NCBI GenBank assembly: GCA_016178155.1
Contig: JACOTZ010000223.1
Coordinates: forward strand, 1-40,041
Origin: Acidobacteriota bacterium
GTDB taxonomy: Bacteria > Acidobacteriota > Terriglobia > Bryobacterales > Bryobacteraceae
Direction: 5' to 3'
DNA: 40,041 nucleotides
The notes beneath the pieces were generated by a model. That model saw nothing but the letters and a program-made list of their open reading frames with translations. It did not search any database and was not told where the DNA came from. Position 1 is the first letter of the stretch. Every line of letters starts with the position of its first letter. Positions 31,757-39,105 of this stretch are shown here, piece by piece. Both the position numbers and the translations under genes were made by a program.

Positions 31757-31975
31757 ATGGCAAAAGTGCAGAAGTCGACCGACTCGTCCAGCCTGGCGGA
31801 AGTTGTGGATCGCATTCTCGACAAGGGAATCGTGATCGACGCGTGGGCTAAGGTGTCGTTGGTCGGCATCGAACTGCTGTCGGTGGAAGCCAGGGTTGTC
31901 ATCGCCTCGGTGGAGACATACCTGAAGTACGCCGAAGCGATCGGCCTGACCGCCACCGCGGCCGCTCCCGCGTAG
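31757..31975 (+). CDS. gvpA: Gas vesicle structural protein GvpA
   Basis: [64 protein letters not shown]: canonical GvpA; AAAGGAG RBS just upstream. Confidence 0.97.
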
Positions 31976-31977
31976 CC

Positions 31978-32151
31978 GCATTTCTCACCACGGTCTGGTC
32001 GTGGCGAGGCGCAGACCAGGGCCGCGCATACAGGTGCGCGACGGTCGCGGCCGGGAGCCGTACTCGAACAGTACGCCCGGACCGCGACCGAGGGCAGCGC
32101 GCCGTGGACGTGGCCCTTCCGCCAGCCGCGCTGGACCGCTGGTGAGAAGGC
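31978..32151. repeat. Intergenic repeat A, copy 1 (~174 bp, MITE-like inverted ends)
   Basis: Starts gcatttctcaccac and ends gctggtgagaaggc; interior 'ggcgaggcgcagaccagggccgcgcatacaggtgcgc...gtggcccttccgcc' shared with copies at 39229 and 39410. Confidence 0.7.
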
Positions 32152-32379
32152 GGGCGGGAGATGGTGGCGAGTCTGCCGGACTCCGCTGCCGGCGTCGGAA
32201 GTGACGGGCTTCCCACAGCGCCCAACCGGGCGTCCGGGATATGCACGTGGCGACTTCTTCCACGGCCGCCAGGCTCGGCCGACAAGGCTCTCATGGCGGC
32301 GTCGAGCGGTGAGCGAAGCCGCCTGCGCCGCTGCGGGAGTCTGGAGAGAATAACCCGATGAAGGAAAGGAGCAACACGT

Positions 32380-32670
32380 ATGGGTGTGCTAACCGACCAC
32401 ATGACTCAGATGTGCAATGAAATTCTGGCCATGCGCCACGGACGGCGCATGCTGAATACGGCGCTCGGCGAGGCCGGTGCCCAGCGCAAGAACATAGTCT
32501 CGCAGATGTGCGCCGGCTTTGCCCGCGCGCGCGTGGAGATGGCCCACCAGACCAGCACGGCGCGCCACGCCTTCCTGAAGAACCTCAGGCAAGGCGTTAA
32601 CCGCCACCGCAGGGAAGTACGGGCCGATCTGATGGGCGCGCGGCGGGCCTGGATGGGCAGGCGCGCGTAA
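32380..32670 (+). CDS. Small basic helical protein X1, candidate gas-vesicle accessory protein; paralogue of 32929-33324
   Basis: MGVLTDHMTQMCNEILAMRHGRRMLNTALGEAGAQRKNIVSQMCAGFARARVEMAHQTSTARHAFLKNLRQGVNRHRREVRADLMGARRAWMGRRA; gapless alignment with X2 (about 37/85 identical by hand count); aaaggagc RBS region upstream. Confidence 0.75.
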   Translation: MGVLTDHMTQMCNEILAMRHGRRMLNTALGEAGAQRKNIVSQMCAGFARARVEMAHQTSTARHAFLKNLRQGVNRHRREVRADLMGARRAWMGRRA

Positions 32671-32822
32671 GCGGCTTGCCGGTACGGCGAGTGAGCCGCC
32701 AGGGGCGCAGCAGCTCCAGCACGGCGCGGCGCTCCGCGTTTTCGGAGCGGATCCCGCCGGATGCTGCGGGCCATTCTTGTTGTCGGGGGTCGCTTCGGAT
32801 CTCGGCCGGTAAGAAACAGGAA

Positions 32823-32888
32823 ACTCGGGAAAGGCCTGGATGCGCGGCGGCTGCCCCCTTCAAGTTTCTGGCTCGGCAACCGCGGTTA
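32823..32888. repeat. Intergenic repeat B, copy 2
   Basis: actcgggaaaggcctggatgcgcggcggctgcccccttcaagtttctggctcggcaaccgcggtta aligns with 31418-31500. Confidence 0.65.
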
Positions 32889-32928
32889 GCCGCTTACTGC
32901 GGGGAGCCGTGATCGAATAAACAGCGAA

Positions 32929-33324
32929 ATGGGGAAAAAAGTGGATGTGATAACGGAAGAGACAAAACGGCTGTGCCGGAGCATTGTCGCCTGGCGGAAG
33001 GGCCGGCGCGCATTGCTCGCCGGCTTGGCGCGCGAAAACGGGGAGCGAAAAACCGCCGTCTCGCTGCTGCGGGCCGAACTCGCCGGCGACCGGCGCGAGA
33101 TGGCCCGGCAAACCAAGGCGAATCGTGTGGCCTTTCTTGCCGGCTTGCGGGGAGCCATCGCGGCACAGCAGCGCGAGTGGCAGGCCGACCGCGCCGGCGG
33201 CCGGCTGGCGTGGTTGAACCGAGCGGCGCCCGCCACCCAACCGGCCACGGGAGAAATGGCGCCGCCAGCCCATCGGCCCCCCGCAGCTCCGCGCAAGTCA
33301 ATGAAAAAGAACCGGTACCGCTAG
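32929..33324 (+). CDS. Small basic helical protein X2, candidate gas-vesicle accessory protein; paralogue of X1 with Pro/Ala-rich tail
   Basis: MGKKVDVITEETKRLCRSIVAWRKGRRALLAGLARENGERKTAVSLLRAELAGDRREMARQTKANRVAFLAGLRGAIAAQQREWQADRAGGRLAWLNRAAPAT...; shares C..I.A.R.GRR, RK..VS, R.EMA.QT...R.AFL..LR, RE..AD..G.R.AW with X1. Confidence 0.75.
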   Translation: MGKKVDVITEETKRLCRSIVAWRKGRRALLAGLARENGERKTAVSLLRAELAGDRREMARQTKANRVAFLAGLRGAIAAQQREWQADRAGGRLAWLNRAAPATQPATGEMAPPAHRPPAAPRKSMKKNRYR

Positions 33325-33334
33325 GAGAACAATC

Positions 33335-34387
33335 ATGCCAGCCGCAGCAATGAGTCATCCCGCCATGACCGAGGAAAACAGCAGTCGGGCCGCCGCCGTC
33401 CTGGTCAGGCTGCAGGCATCCGACGACCACATCGTTCCCGAGCCCAGTGAACAGTTCGTGGTCACGCCGCACATCGAGGCGCTGACCGAGCGGGCCCTGG
33501 CCTACCTCGAGGCCGGCTACGCCGTCCATTTCGCCGGCCCGGCCGGCACCGGCAAGACCGTTCTCGCCTTCCACGTGGCTTCTCGGCTCGGCCGTCCCGT
33601 GGTTCTGATGCACGGCGACGACGAGTTCGACAGCTCCGACCTGCTGGGCAAACATACCGGCTACCGAAAGTCCAAACTCATCGACAACTACATCCATTCG
33701 GTTCTGAAGACCGAAGAGAACGTGAACACTTTCTGGGTGGACAACCGGCTGACCAGCGCGTGCCAGAACGGCCATACCCTGGTCTATGACGAGTTCAACC
33801 GCTCCCGCCCGGAGGCCAACAACGCGCTGCTCAGCGTGCTCGAGGAGCGGATCCTCAACCTCCCCGGCCTGCGCCGCACCGGAGAAGGCTATCTCGAGGT
33901 GCATCCGCACTTCCGCGCTATCTTCACCTCCAATCCCGAAGAGTACGCGGGCGTGCACAAGACGCAGGATGCCCTGATCGACCGCATGATCACCATCCAC
34001 CTCGGGCATTTTGACCGGGAAACCGAGATCCAGGTCACTGTGGCCCGGTCGCGGATCGCGCGCGCCGAGGCCGAGGTGATCGTCGATATCGTGCGCAAGC
34101 TGCGCGAGGTCGGCGTCAACAATCACCGCCCCAGCATCCGCGCCTGTCTGGCAATCGCCCGGGTCCTGGCCGGCCGCCGGGCGCACGCGTCGCCCGACGA
34201 TCCCGTGTTCCATTGGGTATGCCAGGATGTGCTCAGCGTCAACACCGCCAAGATCACCCGCAACGGCCGGTCGATCATGCCGGGAAAGGTGAATGAGGCG
34301 ATCCGGAGCATTTTCGGCAACGGTAGCGGCCAACTTCCCGGGCAGTGCTCCGCAAATGGAGCCGCCGAACCAGCACCGCAGGAGTGA
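33335..34387 (+). CDS. gvpN: Gas vesicle AAA+ ATPase GvpN
   Basis: 'EALTERALAYLEAGYAVHFAGPAGTGKTVLAFHVASRLGRPVVLMHGDDEFDSSDLLGKHTGYRKSKLIDNYIHSVLKTEENVNTFWVDNRLTSACQNGHTLVYDEFNRSRPEANNALLSVLEE'. Confidence 0.96.
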   Translation: MPAAAMSHPAMTEENSSRAAAVLVRLQASDDHIVPEPSEQFVVTPHIEALTERALAYLEAGYAVHFAGPAGTGKTVLAFHVASRLGRPVVLMHGDDEFDSSDLLGKHTGYRKSKLIDNYIHSVLKTEENVNTFWVDNRLTSACQNGHTLVYDEFNRSRPEANNALLSVLEERILNLPGLRRTGEGYLEVHPHFRAIFTSNPEEYAGVHKTQDALIDRMITIHLGHFDRETEIQVTVARSRIARAEAEVIVDIVRKLREVGVNNHRPSIRACLAIARVLAGRRAHASPDDPVFHWVCQDVLSVNTAKITRNGRSIMPGKVNEAIRSIFGNGSGQLPGQCSANGAAEPAPQE

Positions 34388-34391
34388 AGCA

Positions 34392-34697
34392 ATGGCGAAT
34401 GAAATCCGAGGAGTACGCAATCTCAAGACGTTATCCGGCAGGTCGGATCCGGTGGCGTTCCCCTACCAGGGCTACATGCAGATCACCTGCCTCGAAATGG
34501 AGAAGGCCAGGCGCGGAGCCGAGCGGCGCTCGGCCACCCAGAGAATCGCTGAGATTGACGCGCGCCTGCGCGAGATCGAGGAAGAAAAGGCCGGGATCCT
34601 CAAGACGCTCTCCGGGCAGGACACCCCCGCGGGGCTGCCCGGCCGCGCGTCGGGCTGCCCGCCCACACCTCCGCGCGGATTAAAGATTCGTTATTGA
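34392..34697 (+). CDS. Uncharacterised small protein between gvpN and gvpL/F, with coiled-coil segment
   Basis: ATG four bases after gvpN stop; MANEIRGVRNLKTLSGRSDPVAFPYQGYMQITCLEMEKARRGAERRSATQRIAEIDARLREIEEEKAGILKTLSG...RGLKIRY; same strand as the gvp genes. Confidence 0.75.
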   Translation: MANEIRGVRNLKTLSGRSDPVAFPYQGYMQITCLEMEKARRGAERRSATQRIAEIDARLREIEEEKAGILKTLSGQDTPAGLPGRASGCPPTPPRGLKIRY

Positions 34698-34963
34698 GCC
34701 AAACTCAGCGATAAGCCACCTAGAGCGGCAAACCGCTGCGCAGGTGGTGAGCACTCCCATGAAAATTCCAGGCGCCGCCGGTCGCGCATCGGCTGGCCCT
34801 CCCGGATTCAGAGGAGGCGCTAATCACTGCGTACTCCGCCTCGGCCGGAGCGGGCGGCGCTAACGGAACGAAATGTCTTGAGCTCTCATGGAAAGCCGCC
34901 GCGGCGCGGGCCGAGGTTGCCCGCACCTATCCGTCGTTTGCGAGGTTCTGAGAAGGAGATCGG

Positions 34964-35767
34964 ATGAGCCAGCCCTTAACCGCAGCCCGGCCGCCGCTTC
35001 CGCGAGAATGCGCCGGAACTTCTCTGGGGACCGGGAAGACATACTTATACGCCATCGTCGCCGCCGAGCTGGACCAGCCCCACGATTCCCCCGGAATTGA
35101 CGACGCCGATGTGCACACGATCACCGCGGGAAGGGTGTCGGCGGTTGTGAGCTGTGTCTCACACGCCAGGCTGCGCCCGGAGCGGCGGCACATCGCCGCC
35201 CATCAACGCGTTCTCAAGCGGCTGATGGCTGAGACGACGCCCCTGCCGATGGCCTTCGGCATGACCGCCGAAAGCCCGGACGCAGTGCGCCGGATTCTGG
35301 CACGCAACCAGGGCGCCCTGCTCGGCGCGTTGCGCCGCGTCAGCGGCAACGTCGAGATGGGCCTGCGCGCCACCTGGGACGTGCCCAACATATTCGAGCA
35401 CTTCGTCAGCACCCATGCCGAACTCCGCATCCTTCGGGACCGCCTCTTTGCCGCCGGCCGCGAGCCCGCCCGGGAAGAAAGAATTGAATTGGGACGGCTG
35501 TTCGAGCGTCTGCTCCAGGCGGAGCGAGACGCGCACGCCGGCAAAGCAGAAGCCGTGCTGGCGCAACACTGTGTCGAAATCGAGCGCGGCAACTGCCGGC
35601 CCGAGCAGGAAGCGTTCCGTCTCGCTTGCCTGGTCCCGAAGCTCCAGCAGGAGGCGTTTGAAGGCTGCGTCTTTCGCCTGGCGCAACTGTTCGACAACAG
35701 CTTCGCCTTCGACTTCAACGGCCCGTGGCCGCCCTATAATTTCGCCAAGGTCGATCTCGACATGTAA
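34964..35767 (+). CDS. Gas vesicle protein GvpL/GvpF
   Basis: 'KTYLYAIVAAEL', 'RHIAAHQRVLKRLMAETTPLPMAFGMTAES', 'FDNSFAFDFNGPWPPYNFAKVDLDM' (GvpF/L hallmark C-terminus); strong RBS gagaaggagatcgg. Confidence 0.94.
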   Translation: MSQPLTAARPPLPRECAGTSLGTGKTYLYAIVAAELDQPHDSPGIDDADVHTITAGRVSAVVSCVSHARLRPERRHIAAHQRVLKRLMAETTPLPMAFGMTAESPDAVRRILARNQGALLGALRRVSGNVEMGLRATWDVPNIFEHFVSTHAELRILRDRLFAAGREPAREERIELGRLFERLLQAERDAHAGKAEAVLAQHCVEIERGNCRPEQEAFRLACLVPKLQQEAFEGCVFRLAQLFDNSFAFDFNGPWPPYNFAKVDLDM

Positions 35768-35794
35768 GGGTCGCAGAGCCGCGGAGGAGTCTCA

Positions 35795-36082
35795 ATGTTC
35801 CTGATCGATGACATTCTGCTTTCACCCGTGCACGGTGTCGTCTGGATCTGCAAGGAGGTCTTCCGTGCCGCCCAGGAGGAACAGGCGGACGAGGGCGACC
35901 GCATCCGGGCCCAGTTGTGCAATCTCTACATGATGCTCGAAACCGCGCAAATCTCGGAAGAGGAGTTCGCAGCTCAGGAGAAGGTCTGCCTGGACCGGCT
36001 GGAGTTGCTCGAGTCCGGTGAGATGGAGGAGATAGCTGCACCCGGCCAAACCCGCGGGAGCGGTCCAGATCGTGTCCCTTGA
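35795..36082 (+). CDS. gvpG: Gas vesicle protein GvpG
   Basis: MFLIDDILLSPVHGVVWICKEVFRAAQEEQADEGDRIRAQLCNLYMMLETAQISEEEFAAQEKVCLDRLE: typical GvpG. Confidence 0.92.
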   Translation: MFLIDDILLSPVHGVVWICKEVFRAAQEEQADEGDRIRAQLCNLYMMLETAQISEEEFAAQEKVCLDRLELLESGEMEEIAAPGQTRGSGPDRVP

Positions 36083-38021
36083 CTTCCTGGATCGTCGAGG
36101 CCTCCGGCTCCTGCTCTTCGGCGGCAAAGGCGGCGTGGGCAAGACCACATGCGCCGTGGCCACGGGCTTGCGCCTGGCTGAGCAGTTCCCGGAGTGTTCC
36201 TACCTCCTGGTTTCCACCGACCCGGCCCACTCGCTCGCCGACAGCCTCGCCGGCTGCCGCCCGCCTCAAAACCTTCACCTCCTCGAAATGGATGCCCGCC
36301 AGTCGCTGGCGGCCTTCCAGGCCATGCACGGGCGAAAACTGCGCGAGATTCTCTCCCGGGGAACCTTCCTCGACGAGGACGACACCGAGCGCCTCGTCAA
36401 CCTGTCGCTCCCAGGGCTGGACGAGCTGATGGCTTTCCTCGAAATCTCCACTTGGGTGCTCGAGCGCCGTTACGAATGCATCCTGGTCGATACCGCACCG
36501 AGCGGCCACATGCTGCGCATGCTGCAGGTCCCCGGACTGCTCCGCAATTGGCTGCAGGTGCTCGATTCGCTGCTCGCGAAACATCGCTACTTGCGGCAGG
36601 TCTTCACACGTTCTCGGGCCCCCGATGCGCTTGACCTCTATCTGAAGAATTTCGCCGCCTCCCTGCGGCGCATGGAACGGCTGCTCCGCGATCCAGCCTG
36701 CTCGCGTTTCGTGCCCGTGCTGGTGGCGGAGGCCCTCTCGGTCGCCGAAACCGCCGCCATGGTGCGGGAACTCAACTGGCTGCGGCTGCCAATCAGCGAA
36801 TTGGTGGTCAATCGGCTTTACCCCGAGAGCCGGTGCCCGGCCTGCGCCTCGGCGCGAAGCAGCCAGTGCGGGCAATTGCGAGCCCTCTCGGGCGAGCCGG
36901 CCCTCTCGCTATACCCTGTCTGGGGCGTCCCCGTTTACCCTGACGAGGTGCAGGGCGATCGTGCCCTGAGGGCATTCTGGGATGGCGCGGCCCCCGTGAC
37001 TGAAACCGCTGCCGGCGCAACCCTTCCGGCTAGGGCGCTCGCTCCCGCAGCCCCGGCCGCGGCCGAAGAGCTGCCTCCGGCGCTCAGGCTCCTGCTGATC
37101 GGAGGCAAGGGCGGAGTGGGGAAAACCACCGTAGCTTGCGCGACCGCGATCGGCTTGGCCACCCGCTACCCCGGAACCCGCGTGCTGCTGTTTTCCGCCG
37201 ATCCCGCGCACTCCCTGTCCGATTGTCTCGATCTGCCCGTCGAAGCCTCCCCCACCCAGGTGATCCCGGGACTCAGCGCCGTGGAGGTCGATGCGCGCTC
37301 AGAATTGGAATCGCTGCGCGCCCAATACGCCCGGGACTTGGAGCATTTCCTGATCACGGTCTCGCGGAATTTCGATTTGAGCTTTGACCGCCAGGTGATG
37401 GAACAGATTCTCGATCTGGCTCCGCCCGGCTTGGACGAGATCATGGCCCAGGCCCGCGTCATGGACTTCCTCGCCAGCCCCAACTTCGACGTGGTCGTGG
37501 TGGACGCGGCCGCCACCGGCCACCTGCTGCGCTGGCTCGAGCTGCCGGAGCTGATGGAACCATGGATCCGCTTTGTTTTCGGGCTCTTTCGCAAGTATCA
37601 GCGAGTCATCCGGGCGCCCCGCATCACCGCCCGGCTGGCCGAGCTCTCCCGCCACCTGAAACAGCTCAGAAACATGCTCGCCGATCGCGAAACGAGTCGG
37701 CTCTACATTGTGAGTATTTTGACCGATATGGCACTTGATGAGACCCGGGATCTGGTGGCGGCCTGCGAGCGCTTGCACCTCGACGTTCCTGCCATCATTC
37801 TGAATTTGGCGGTGCCTGCACGTGATTGCAGCCTGTGCTCGGCCATACATCGCCGCGAGGCAGTCGTGCGGCGCAAATACCGGGAGAGTTTCCCGCGCCA
37901 GCGCCAATCGACCGTTTACCGTCAGGAAACCCCACGCGGTCTGGCCGGGCTGGCGGAGTTCGCCGCGGCAATGTACTTGCCCGCCGGCCGGCGGAAGGAG
38001 GCGGTCTCGTTTGTATCTTGA
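36072..38021 (+). CDS. Tandem ArsA/Get3-family ATPase, two complete P-loop halves
   Basis: Two deviant Walker A motifs GGKGGVGKTT; 'DTAPSGHMLRML' and 'DAAATGHLLRWL'; 'PGLDEL' and 'PGLDEI'; a CxxC in each half (RCPAC and DCSLC). GTG start overlaps end of gvpG. Confidence 0.92.
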   Translation: MSLDFLDRRGLRLLLFGGKGGVGKTTCAVATGLRLAEQFPECSYLLVSTDPAHSLADSLAGCRPPQNLHLLEMDARQSLAAFQAMHGRKLREILSRGTFLDEDDTERLVNLSLPGLDELMAFLEISTWVLERRYECILVDTAPSGHMLRMLQVPGLLRNWLQVLDSLLAKHRYLRQVFTRSRAPDALDLYLKNFAASLRRMERLLRDPACSRFVPVLVAEALSVAETAAMVRELNWLRLPISELVVNRLYPESRCPACASARSSQCGQLRALSGEPALSLYPVWGVPVYPDEVQGDRALRAFWDGAAPVTETAAGATLPARALAPAAPAAAEELPPALRLLLIGGKGGVGKTTVACATAIGLATRYPGTRVLLFSADPAHSLSDCLDLPVEASPTQVIPGLSAVEVDARSELESLRAQYARDLEHFLITVSRNFDLSFDRQVMEQILDLAPPGLDEIMAQARVMDFLASPNFDVVVVDAAATGHLLRWLELPELMEPWIRFVFGLFRKYQRVIRAPRITARLAELSRHLKQLRNMLADRETSRLYIVSILTDMALDETRDLVAACERLHLDVPAIILNLAVPARDCSLCSAIHRREAVVRRKYRESFPRQRQSTVYRQETPRGLAGLAEFAAAMYLPAGRRKEAVSFVS

Positions 38022-38262
38022 GGACGACAAACAGAAATTGGACGGAGCCGAGCGGGTAGCGCTCTGCGAGTTGCTGGACCGGGTTCTCAATAAGGGGGTA
38101 GTGGTGGTCGGAGAGTTGACGATCTCGGTGGCCGATGTGGATCTCATCTACCTTGGCCTGCAGGTTGTCCTGACTTCGATAGAGACTTGCCGCGAGAGCC
38201 TTGCCCGTGGTTGCCCCGGGAGCGGCGGCCTCCGCATCGGCTTCCCGGGTGCGCGGCTGTAA
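38011..38262 (+). CDS. GvpA-family protein, GvpJ/GvpS type
   Basis: TTG start at 38011 with upstream ggaaggagg: LYLEDDKQKLDGAERVALCELLDRVLNKGVVVVGELTISVADVDLIYLGLQVVLTSIETCRESL; overlaps ATPase 3' end. Confidence 0.88.
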   Translation: MYLEDDKQKLDGAERVALCELLDRVLNKGVVVVGELTISVADVDLIYLGLQVVLTSIETCRESLARGCPGSGGLRIGFPGARL

Positions 38263-38348
38263 CGGCAATGGCTTGCAGCAATCGGCTGGTGCTGAGCGGT
38301 GGGGTGTCCGCAAACAATCGTGCAACCGGGTCGGAAGGAACAGCAACG

Positions 38349-38693
38349 ATGCTTTCTCCGCAAACGCGGGTAGAGTCTGAAGCAGTCGGTGAGTTCGCCA
38401 GCGTGATGCAGCCCGCTCGCTACGCCCCCCCGCGCATGAACCTCAACCCGGAGAGCGTCAGGAACGGCCTCGGGCAACTGGTTCTCACGCTGGTCAAGCT
38501 TCTGCACGAGCTGCTCGAGCGCCAGGCGATCCGGCGCATTGAAACCGGCTCCCTCAGCGAGGAACAGATCGAAAGGCTGGGGTTGACCTTGATGCGGCAG
38601 GCCGAGGAGATCGAACGCTTGCGCAAGGAGTTCGGTTTGGACGCAGAAGATCTGAATCTGGATCTCGGCCCGCTCGGGAGACTGTTCCAGTGA
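38349..38693 (+). CDS. gvpK: Gas vesicle protein GvpK
   Basis: 'LNPESVRNGLGQLVLTLVKLLHELLERQAIRRIETGSLSEEQIERLGLTLMRQAEEIERLRKEFGLDAEDLNLDLGPLGRLF'; ATG 38349 preceded by ggaagga (38268 alternative). Confidence 0.94.
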   Translation: MLSPQTRVESEAVGEFASVMQPARYAPPRMNLNPESVRNGLGQLVLTLVKLLHELLERQAIRRIETGSLSEEQIERLGLTLMRQAEEIERLRKEFGLDAEDLNLDLGPLGRLFQ

Positions 38694-38799
38694 AGCCGCT
38701 CAGCGCGCCTCGGGCCGCCGGGCAGGCCACGGCTGCTCGGGGTCGAAACGTCAACCGCCGCGCCTCGGGCCGGCTGGGAGGTTCTCAGGAGAGGTACAC

Positions 38800-39105
38800 A
38801 TGCAGCAGCCACACGCCGTGACCCACTCGATGCAGACGTCCTCGCTGGCGGACGTGCTCGAACGGGTGCTGGATAAGGGGATCGTGATTGCCGGCGATAT
38901 CAGGGTCAAGCTCGTCGACATCGAGCTGCTCTCGATCCAGCTCCGCCTGGTGATCTGCTCCGTCGACAAGGCCCGGGAAATGGGTATGGATTGGTGGGTG
39001 AACCAGCCCGTCTTCGCGGGCCGTCCGGCGCCGGACGCGGTGGAAAGCTCCCTGGCCCGGATTGAGGAGCGTCTGGCAAGGTTGGAGACGGCGGTTTCGC
39101 AGTGA
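38800..39105 (+). CDS. gvpJ: Gas vesicle protein GvpJ (GvpA family)
   Basis: 'SLADVLERVLDKGIVIAGDIRVKLVDIELLSIQLRLVICSVDKAREMGMDWW' plus C-terminal coiled coil 'SSLARIEERLARLETAV'. Confidence 0.92.
   Translation: MQQPHAVTHSMQTSSLADVLERVLDKGIVIAGDIRVKLVDIELLSIQLRLVICSVDKAREMGMDWWVNQPVFAGRPAPDAVESSLARIEERLARLETAVSQ

Follow-up and report, generated by a model that had tools for sequence, protein, structure and literature searches.

Gas-vesicle genes at the locus

We analyzed a stretch of 40,041 nucleotides from a member of the Acidobacteriota (contig JACOTZ010000223.1; hereafter, "the window"). Judged by its nearest named relatives, the host is probably of the Bryobacteraceae/Solibacteraceae kind. 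Open reading frame (ORF) calls combined with Pfam and NCBIfam matches place a gas-vesicle cluster at positions 31757-39105, with the gene order gvpA, X1, X2, gvpN, gvpV candidate, gvpF, gvpG, double ArsA/Get3 ATPase, gvpA-like, gvpK, gvpA-like. X1 and X2 are the two small genes that are the main subject of this report. The features are:

31757-31975, + strand: gvpA, rib protein (NF006874 GvpA, 133.7 bits)
32042-32090, + strand: inverted repeat between gvpA and X1, 14-nt arms and 21-nt loop
32380-32670, + strand: X1, gvpA-proximal, probable minimal GvpC-type protein of 96 aa, single predicted helix 2-95
32929-33324, + strand: X2, gvpN-proximal, probable minimal GvpC-type protein of 131 aa, predicted helix 3-99 plus disordered tail
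33335-34387, + strand: gvpN, AAA ATPase (TIGR02640, 351 bits)
34377-34697, + strand: gvpV candidate, in the slot of Serratia gvpV (name inferred from gene order)
34964-35767, + strand: gvpF (PF06386, 213 bits)
35795-36082, + strand: gvpG (PF05120)
36072-38021, + strand: double ArsA/Get3-type ATPase, corresponding by position to gvpW in Serratia (PF02374, 341.6 bits)
38005-38262, + strand: second GvpA-domain protein, GvpA2/GvpS/J type (PF00741)
38241-38693, + strand: gvpK (PF05121)
38800-39105, + strand: third GvpA-domain protein, GvpA3/GvpJ type (PF00741 and NCBIfam matches)

The order is shared with the operon of Serratia sp. ATCC 39006 (gvpA1-C-N-V-F1-G-W-A2-K-X-A3-Y; PMC9501494), and X1 and X2 together occupy the place of its gvpC. 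Neither Pfam nor NCBIfam has a family that matches the gvpV candidate, which is kept beside gvpN in nearly all of the loci surveyed below. The double ATPase stands after gvpG and before the second gvpA-like gene, and many related clusters have it too. Most related clusters carry extra gvpF-like genes upstream of gvpA, unlike the single GvpF found here in the whole genome; because the assembly is 87% complete, a further gvpF may be missing. The inverted repeat is GC-rich and lies inside the 404-bp gap between gvpA and X1. An Rfam search of this intergenic stretch returned nothing; judged from its sequence, the repeat is a possible processing or attenuation hairpin, perhaps limiting read-through from gvpA.

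Two paralogous basic proteins between gvpA and gvpN

A preliminary description of this DNA had presented X1 and X2 as strongly basic paralogs in the gvpA-gvpN interval, each with a tandem repeat of about 26 residues, and had suggested that they could be an unrelated or a highly diverged GvpC-type shell-binding family. The two + strand ORFs (32380-32670, 96 aa; 32929-33324, 131 aa) and their gap-free paralogy are borne out, with 39 identities in 94 positions (64.7 bits, E 9e-20 for the pair), and when X2 is searched against its own whole genome, X1 (9e-15) is the sole match below 0.1. Their basic character is likewise confirmed, with isoelectric points (pI) of 11.9 and 11.7. X2 may start at GTG 32941 instead of ATG 32929: on our reading of the sequence, the GTG has GGGGA five bases upstream and would give a protein of 127 aa with the family-like beginning M-D-V-I-T-E-E, and the ATG is without a clear ribosome site.

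Searched against Pfam and NCBIfam, X1 and X2 match no family above cut-off and give only scattered coiled-coil matches. A plasmid search with X2 gave no match, and viral contigs yielded distant ATPases only. As no match to a known non-gas-vesicle family was found, the GvpC idea survives this check.

In AlphaFold2 models, X1 is one continuous helix (residues 2-95, mean pLDDT 96.4) and X2 is a helix (residues 3-99, core pLDDT about 97) followed by a disordered tail. Both models show the extended amphipathic alpha helix that marks the wider GvpC superfamily.

A family confined to the gvpA-gvpN interval

To place the two proteins, we ran an iterated profile, seeded with X1, X2, and close relatives, on every ORF of 103 loci, each centered on a related gvpN or gvpA gene. 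The loci came from the window's own phylum, from two plasmids, and from 80 named contigs of genomes, covering about a dozen phyla. The profile identified 114 members in 83 of these loci. Where gvpA and gvpN lie on one strand, which is the case at 76 loci, family members stand between them at 73; 2 copies fall outside the gap and 102 inside it. As the search covered every ORF, the restriction to this interval was observed, not assumed; the loci are no census, since most were chosen by closeness to this gvpN. Further members occupy the same interval outside that search, in L199 (a gammaproteobacterium; 95 aa, 3e-33), L200, Spartinivicinus (L167), and Octadecabacter (L168).

Homologs outside a gas-vesicle context would speak against the assignment, and we looked for them in whole genomes. 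Among 396 genomes of the window's phylum, a profile of 26 short members gave matches in 8, of which 6 have gvpA near the match and two are weak matches in other ORFs. In the phylum of Desulfomonile, 33 of 345 genomes are gvpA-positive, and all 15 genomes with matches below 1e-5 are among those 33; the 312 genomes without gvpA gave 3 weak matches (9e-5 to 7e-4). Thus, in these two phyla, no confident homolog occurs outside gas-vesicle genomes. Four gas-vesicle genomes, none of them identified as Serratia, turned up among 369 drawn from the class to which a Thiodictyon belongs.

The members range from 67 to over 800 residues, including one-unit rods of roughly 87 to 100 residues, and have a median pI of 10.5. 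The family sits in one place in gas-vesicle clusters of many phyla, unrecognized by protein-family libraries. Family-like helical proteins also occur in Acidobacteriota-phylum clusters without a detected GvpV (L060:195-779, L060:11947-12540, and L202), and the family is therefore not confined to GvpV-type clusters. Against the curated libraries, long members show apolipoprotein matches below cut-off, which we set aside as a generic likeness of amphipathic helices.

The strength of gas vesicles, which are buoyancy organelles, depends on GvpC, a protein that wraps and stiffens them and through which they are mainly tuned as ultrasound reporters. Known GvpC models cover cyanobacteria and haloarchaea. 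What emerges here is an unmodeled, mostly "hypothetical" GvpC family across about a dozen phyla, for which a family profile would let annotation pipelines name the genes, and which would offer new parts for engineered vesicles. RefSeq labels the members on Methylocella and Methylosinus plasmids as hypothetical, and a search of the papers available to us turned up no report for Acidobacteriota. Part of the family has probably been called GvpC before, since the gvpC annotations of Tashiro et al. (2016) cover seven proteobacteria and their comparison includes Desulfomonile tiedjei (PMC4982088).

A single 33-residue unit in X1 and X2

The tandem 26-residue repeat of the preliminary description did not hold up. 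Self-similarity at lag 26 reaches z = 1.9 in X1 and 2.9 in X2 among 41 lags tested, in two proteins that are homologous to each other, and other lags at helix harmonics are positive as well. Across the long members, the mean z is 4.87 at lag 33, followed by 2.93 at lag 40, with 1.10 at lag 26, and individual lag-33 values reach 12.4 in Desulfomonile (L104), 9.9 in L062, 9.6 in L127, and 9.5 in L119. Nostoc GvpC shares this period (lag-33 z = 16.0). We therefore rejected the 26-residue repeat: lag 26 reflects a harmonic of the helix and is no special mark of this family, and 33 dominates in the longer relatives.

In X1 and X2 themselves, lag 33 is not raised. Neither protein has a tandem series of 33-residue repeats, and because each holds a single unit, its sequence cannot show the period. 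The earlier 26-residue unit arises from laying the C-terminal cap over this single unit. Read from sequence, the core of each protein is best described as three segments in a row: an N-cap, a single GvpC unit of 33 residues, and a C-cap with the conserved motif DLxGARRAW. The parts are:

32380-32466, + strand: X1 N-cap, residues 1-29, family motif MGxLTxDMTRLxxEIxAxRxxR
32476-32574, + strand: X1 GvpC-like 33-residue unit, residues 33-65 (profile alignment to three Nostoc GvpC repeats)
32596-32658, + strand: X1 C-cap, residues 73-93, DLxGARRAWxG motif
33037-33135, + strand: X2 GvpC-like 33-residue unit, residues 37-69 (gap-free alignment to X1)
33157-33219, + strand: X2 C-cap, residues 77-97, DRAGGRLAWLN
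33229-33321, + strand: X2 Pro/Ala/Lys/Arg-rich tail, residues 101-131, predicted disordered (pLDDT 46-64)

In the profile register, Arg51, Ala55, Phe65, and Leu69 of X1 fall at GvpC positions 19, 23, 33, and 4, and Arg55, Ala59, and Phe69 of X2 at positions 19, 23, and 33. The C-cap is strongly conserved, with W91 (X1 numbering) in 91% and D83 in 90% of alignment rows.

Relationship to GvpC

The profile of 26 short members, X1 and X2 included, matches the GvpC of Nostoc with a score of 26.5 bits and, for 10,000 sequences, an E of 3.5e-6; this test uses one cyanobacterial GvpC, and short amphipathic helices can match by chance. The controls for that chance are an E of 0.28 for the best of 1000 shuffled GvpC sequences, 1.7 or worse for reversed family members, and 18.4 bits for the best of 177,635 PDB sequences. 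The iterated profile reaches E 1.2e-7, and three Nostoc GvpC repeats align in one register to the same profile columns. In the reverse direction, when Nostoc GvpC alone is the query against 9986 ORFs, the six top-ranked hits are all family members. Of the 100 highest-scoring hits of a GvpC-repeat profile, 22 are family members (p 8e-23), a result that serves as enrichment only, because a single-repeat profile is too short for the significance of any one protein.

Residue conservation follows the unit of GvpC in part. Position 19 is Arg (41%) or His (38%), together 79%; position 23 is Ala in 83%, position 33 Phe in 68%, and the next position 4 Leu in 78%. Leu12 is kept in only 21%, and position 30 is mostly Arg, not Leu. 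Huber et al. found Leu4/12/30, Phe11/33, and Arg19 to be required for stabilization by GvpC (PMC9994262). In a rotation test of the contact face, the GvpC register comes only 4th of 33. One 254-aa member (L062, 9676-10440) keeps Leu12, Gln26, Leu30, Phe33, and Leu4 on our reading, and looks like an intermediate between the family and GvpC.

X1 and X2 thus resemble the cyanobacterial GvpC of Anabaena and Nostoc (PF01304, TIGR02641) in their position between gvpA and gvpN, their amphipathic helix, their 33-residue unit with Arg19, Ala23, and Phe33, and their profile-detectable similarity. They differ in having one unit where cyanobacterial GvpC has four or five, in their own N-cap and DLxGARRAW C-cap, in not keeping Leu12 and Leu30, and in charge (pI 11.9 and 11.7, versus 5.8 for Nostoc GvpC). 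The curated models also miss them: X1 and X2 have no match to TIGR02641 or PF01304 at E up to 1, and PF01304 finds nothing in the family loci, while the same models recover Nostoc GvpC, as a positive control, at 3.2e-39 and 8e-16.

These differences leave room for convergence, in which an unrelated basic helical family would bind helix alpha-2 of GvpA and act like GvpC without kinship. The failure of PF01304 and TIGR02641, the different charge, the unique caps, and a weak hhalign comparison with the single Nostoc GvpC sequence (probability 18.5%, E 0.0013) all fit such a history. We nevertheless consider it unlikely, as the family has the same gene slot and the same 33-residue period, and the register-consistent profile match lies far above shuffled sequences, reversed proteins, and PDB coiled coils. 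Synteny, the period of the long members, and the in-register match support the earlier suggestion of a highly diverged GvpC-type family, and its alternative, an unrelated family, finds no support. X1 and X2 are very probably stripped-down relatives of GvpC, two diverged proteins of minimal size in a GvpC superfamily with a broad spread in bacteria, and they probably act on the ribs as GvpC does.

With proteobacterial GvpC, as in Serratia sp. ATCC 39006, X1 and X2 share the slot and the order A-C-N-V-F-G-W-A2-K (PMC4982088). Desulfomonile tiedjei, compared in the same study, has in the gvpC slot a family member with several 33-residue repeats (L104). On the strength of this link and of gene order, Serratia GvpC and X1/X2 probably belong to one family.

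Haloarchaeal GvpC has a shaping and strengthening role. Its gene position and repeated amphipathic helix (PF05465) are similar to those described here, but it is very acidic (pI 4.05) and shows no significant similarity to the X profile, and kinship with it finds no support.

A proposed action on the shell

In Anabaena, a 33-residue unit of GvpC measures 49.5 A and runs over the alpha-2 helices of four GvpA subunits, where Arg19 meets Glu52 (PMC9994262, PMC10185304); the docking site on GvpA is V51-V61 (PMC9994262). The GvpA of this cluster has the corresponding 11-residue alpha-2 stretch with both glutamates (Glu52/Glu59), and the stretch is present in 83 of 110 GvpA-like ORFs of the surveyed loci. 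By analogy, X1 and X2 are probably shell-binding stiffening rods. Each core would form one amphipathic helix, some 95 residues and 14 nm in length, placed on the vesicle exterior along a GvpA rib and crossing the alpha-2 helices of successive subunits; the 33-residue unit would span four GvpA, and a rod that is helical over its full length would cover about eleven. The hydrophobic face (unit positions 8, 11, 15, 33, and 4) would turn toward the shell, and basic residues, Arg19 included, would meet Glu52/Glu59, so that the basic charge of X1 and X2 would suit the acidic alpha-2 surface. Binding would thicken the wall and raise the collapse pressure. X1 would act as a bare rod and X2 as a rod with a flexible basic tail. 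We infer the binding, orientation, and strengthening, and any difference in role between X1 and X2. For strengthening, the grounds are kinship with GvpC and the Serratia gvpC deletion, which lowers collapse pressure threefold, from 0.4334 to 0.1435 MPa (PMC4982088). As Anabaena GvpC cut to two repeats still binds and restores less strength (PMC9501494), one-unit proteins would be natural tests of the lower limit, and the family provides a size series for finding the number of 33-residue units that shell binding and stiffening require.

X1 and X2 could also be assembly factors, either GvpA chaperones or GvpN cofactors, whose coiled-coil helices lie in the gvpA-gvpN interval by chance. Assembly factors often include small, basic, helical proteins. 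Their genes adjoin gvpN in the clusters, and GvpV, the product of the next gene, is needed in Serratia for growth from bicone to cylinder (PMC4982088). Homology and register to GvpC argue against this function, as do the strengthening phenotype of the Serratia gvpC slot and the expansion in 33-residue repeats, which matches four GvpA and is expected of a rib-binding rod, not of a chaperone. We regard an assembly role as distinctly unlikely and prefer that of a GvpC-type rod on the rib.

Two copies with different tails

Two members are present at 29 loci; there the copy nearer gvpA is short (median 96 aa, tail of 5) and the copy nearer gvpN is longer (median 181 aa, tail of 72). X2 groups with the gvpN-proximal copies of Acidobacteriaceae and G015 (SH-aLRT 85). 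On the tree, whose resolution is poor, no fewer than 9 switches between the gvpA-proximal and gvpN-proximal positions are required, and this suggests more than one duplication as the origin of the two-copy loci.

A more speculative extension of the GvpC-type rod, which we think rather doubtful, is a two-part dressing of the shell, in which one unit suffices: X1-type proteins would clamp the ribs, and the tails of X2-type proteins, basic and disordered here and helix-hairpin-helix in sulfate reducers, would tether or space vesicles. The split between the two types would have evolved more than once, in different phyla. Far less probable still is a purely tethering function, with X1 and X2 using their basic faces, and X2 also its tail, to link vesicles to nucleic acid, polar clusters, or membranes and having little mechanical role. 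It would account for the high pI, the disordered basic tail of X2, the long tails of gvpN-proximal copies, and the helix-hairpin-helix tails of sulfate-reducer members, but X1-type copies are without a tail (median of 5 residues), and the conserved part is the helix with the GvpC register. The rib-binding rod thus remains our preferred function for both proteins.

Several variations accompany the gap proteins. A PF14520 helix-hairpin-helix domain ends the GvpC-like rods of sulfate reducers and others, in the C-terminal 60-90 residues of the gap protein (L110, L113, L119, L134, and L141, the last from the cultured Desulfocicer vacuolatum DSM 3385, and also L109, L148, and L153). These tails also resemble those of the phasin PhaH and of ribosomal protein L21, and granule-coat and vesicle-coat proteins may, from this resemblance, share a tail module. 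In Thiosymbion, two gap proteins (L152:3340-5211, 623 aa; L153:2340-4871, 843 aa) have long low-complexity repeats of the ALGGVTGA type after a short family core. A duplicated arrangement, gvpA-X-gvpA-X-gvpN, is found in Deltaproteobacteria-type MAGs (L093, L094, L095, L096, L097, L105, L125, L133, L139, and L150), and in the gammaproteobacterium mentioned above, an ORF with a DnaJ-like cysteine-rich zinc finger (L199:7116-7550) lies between the GvpC-type gene and gvpN.
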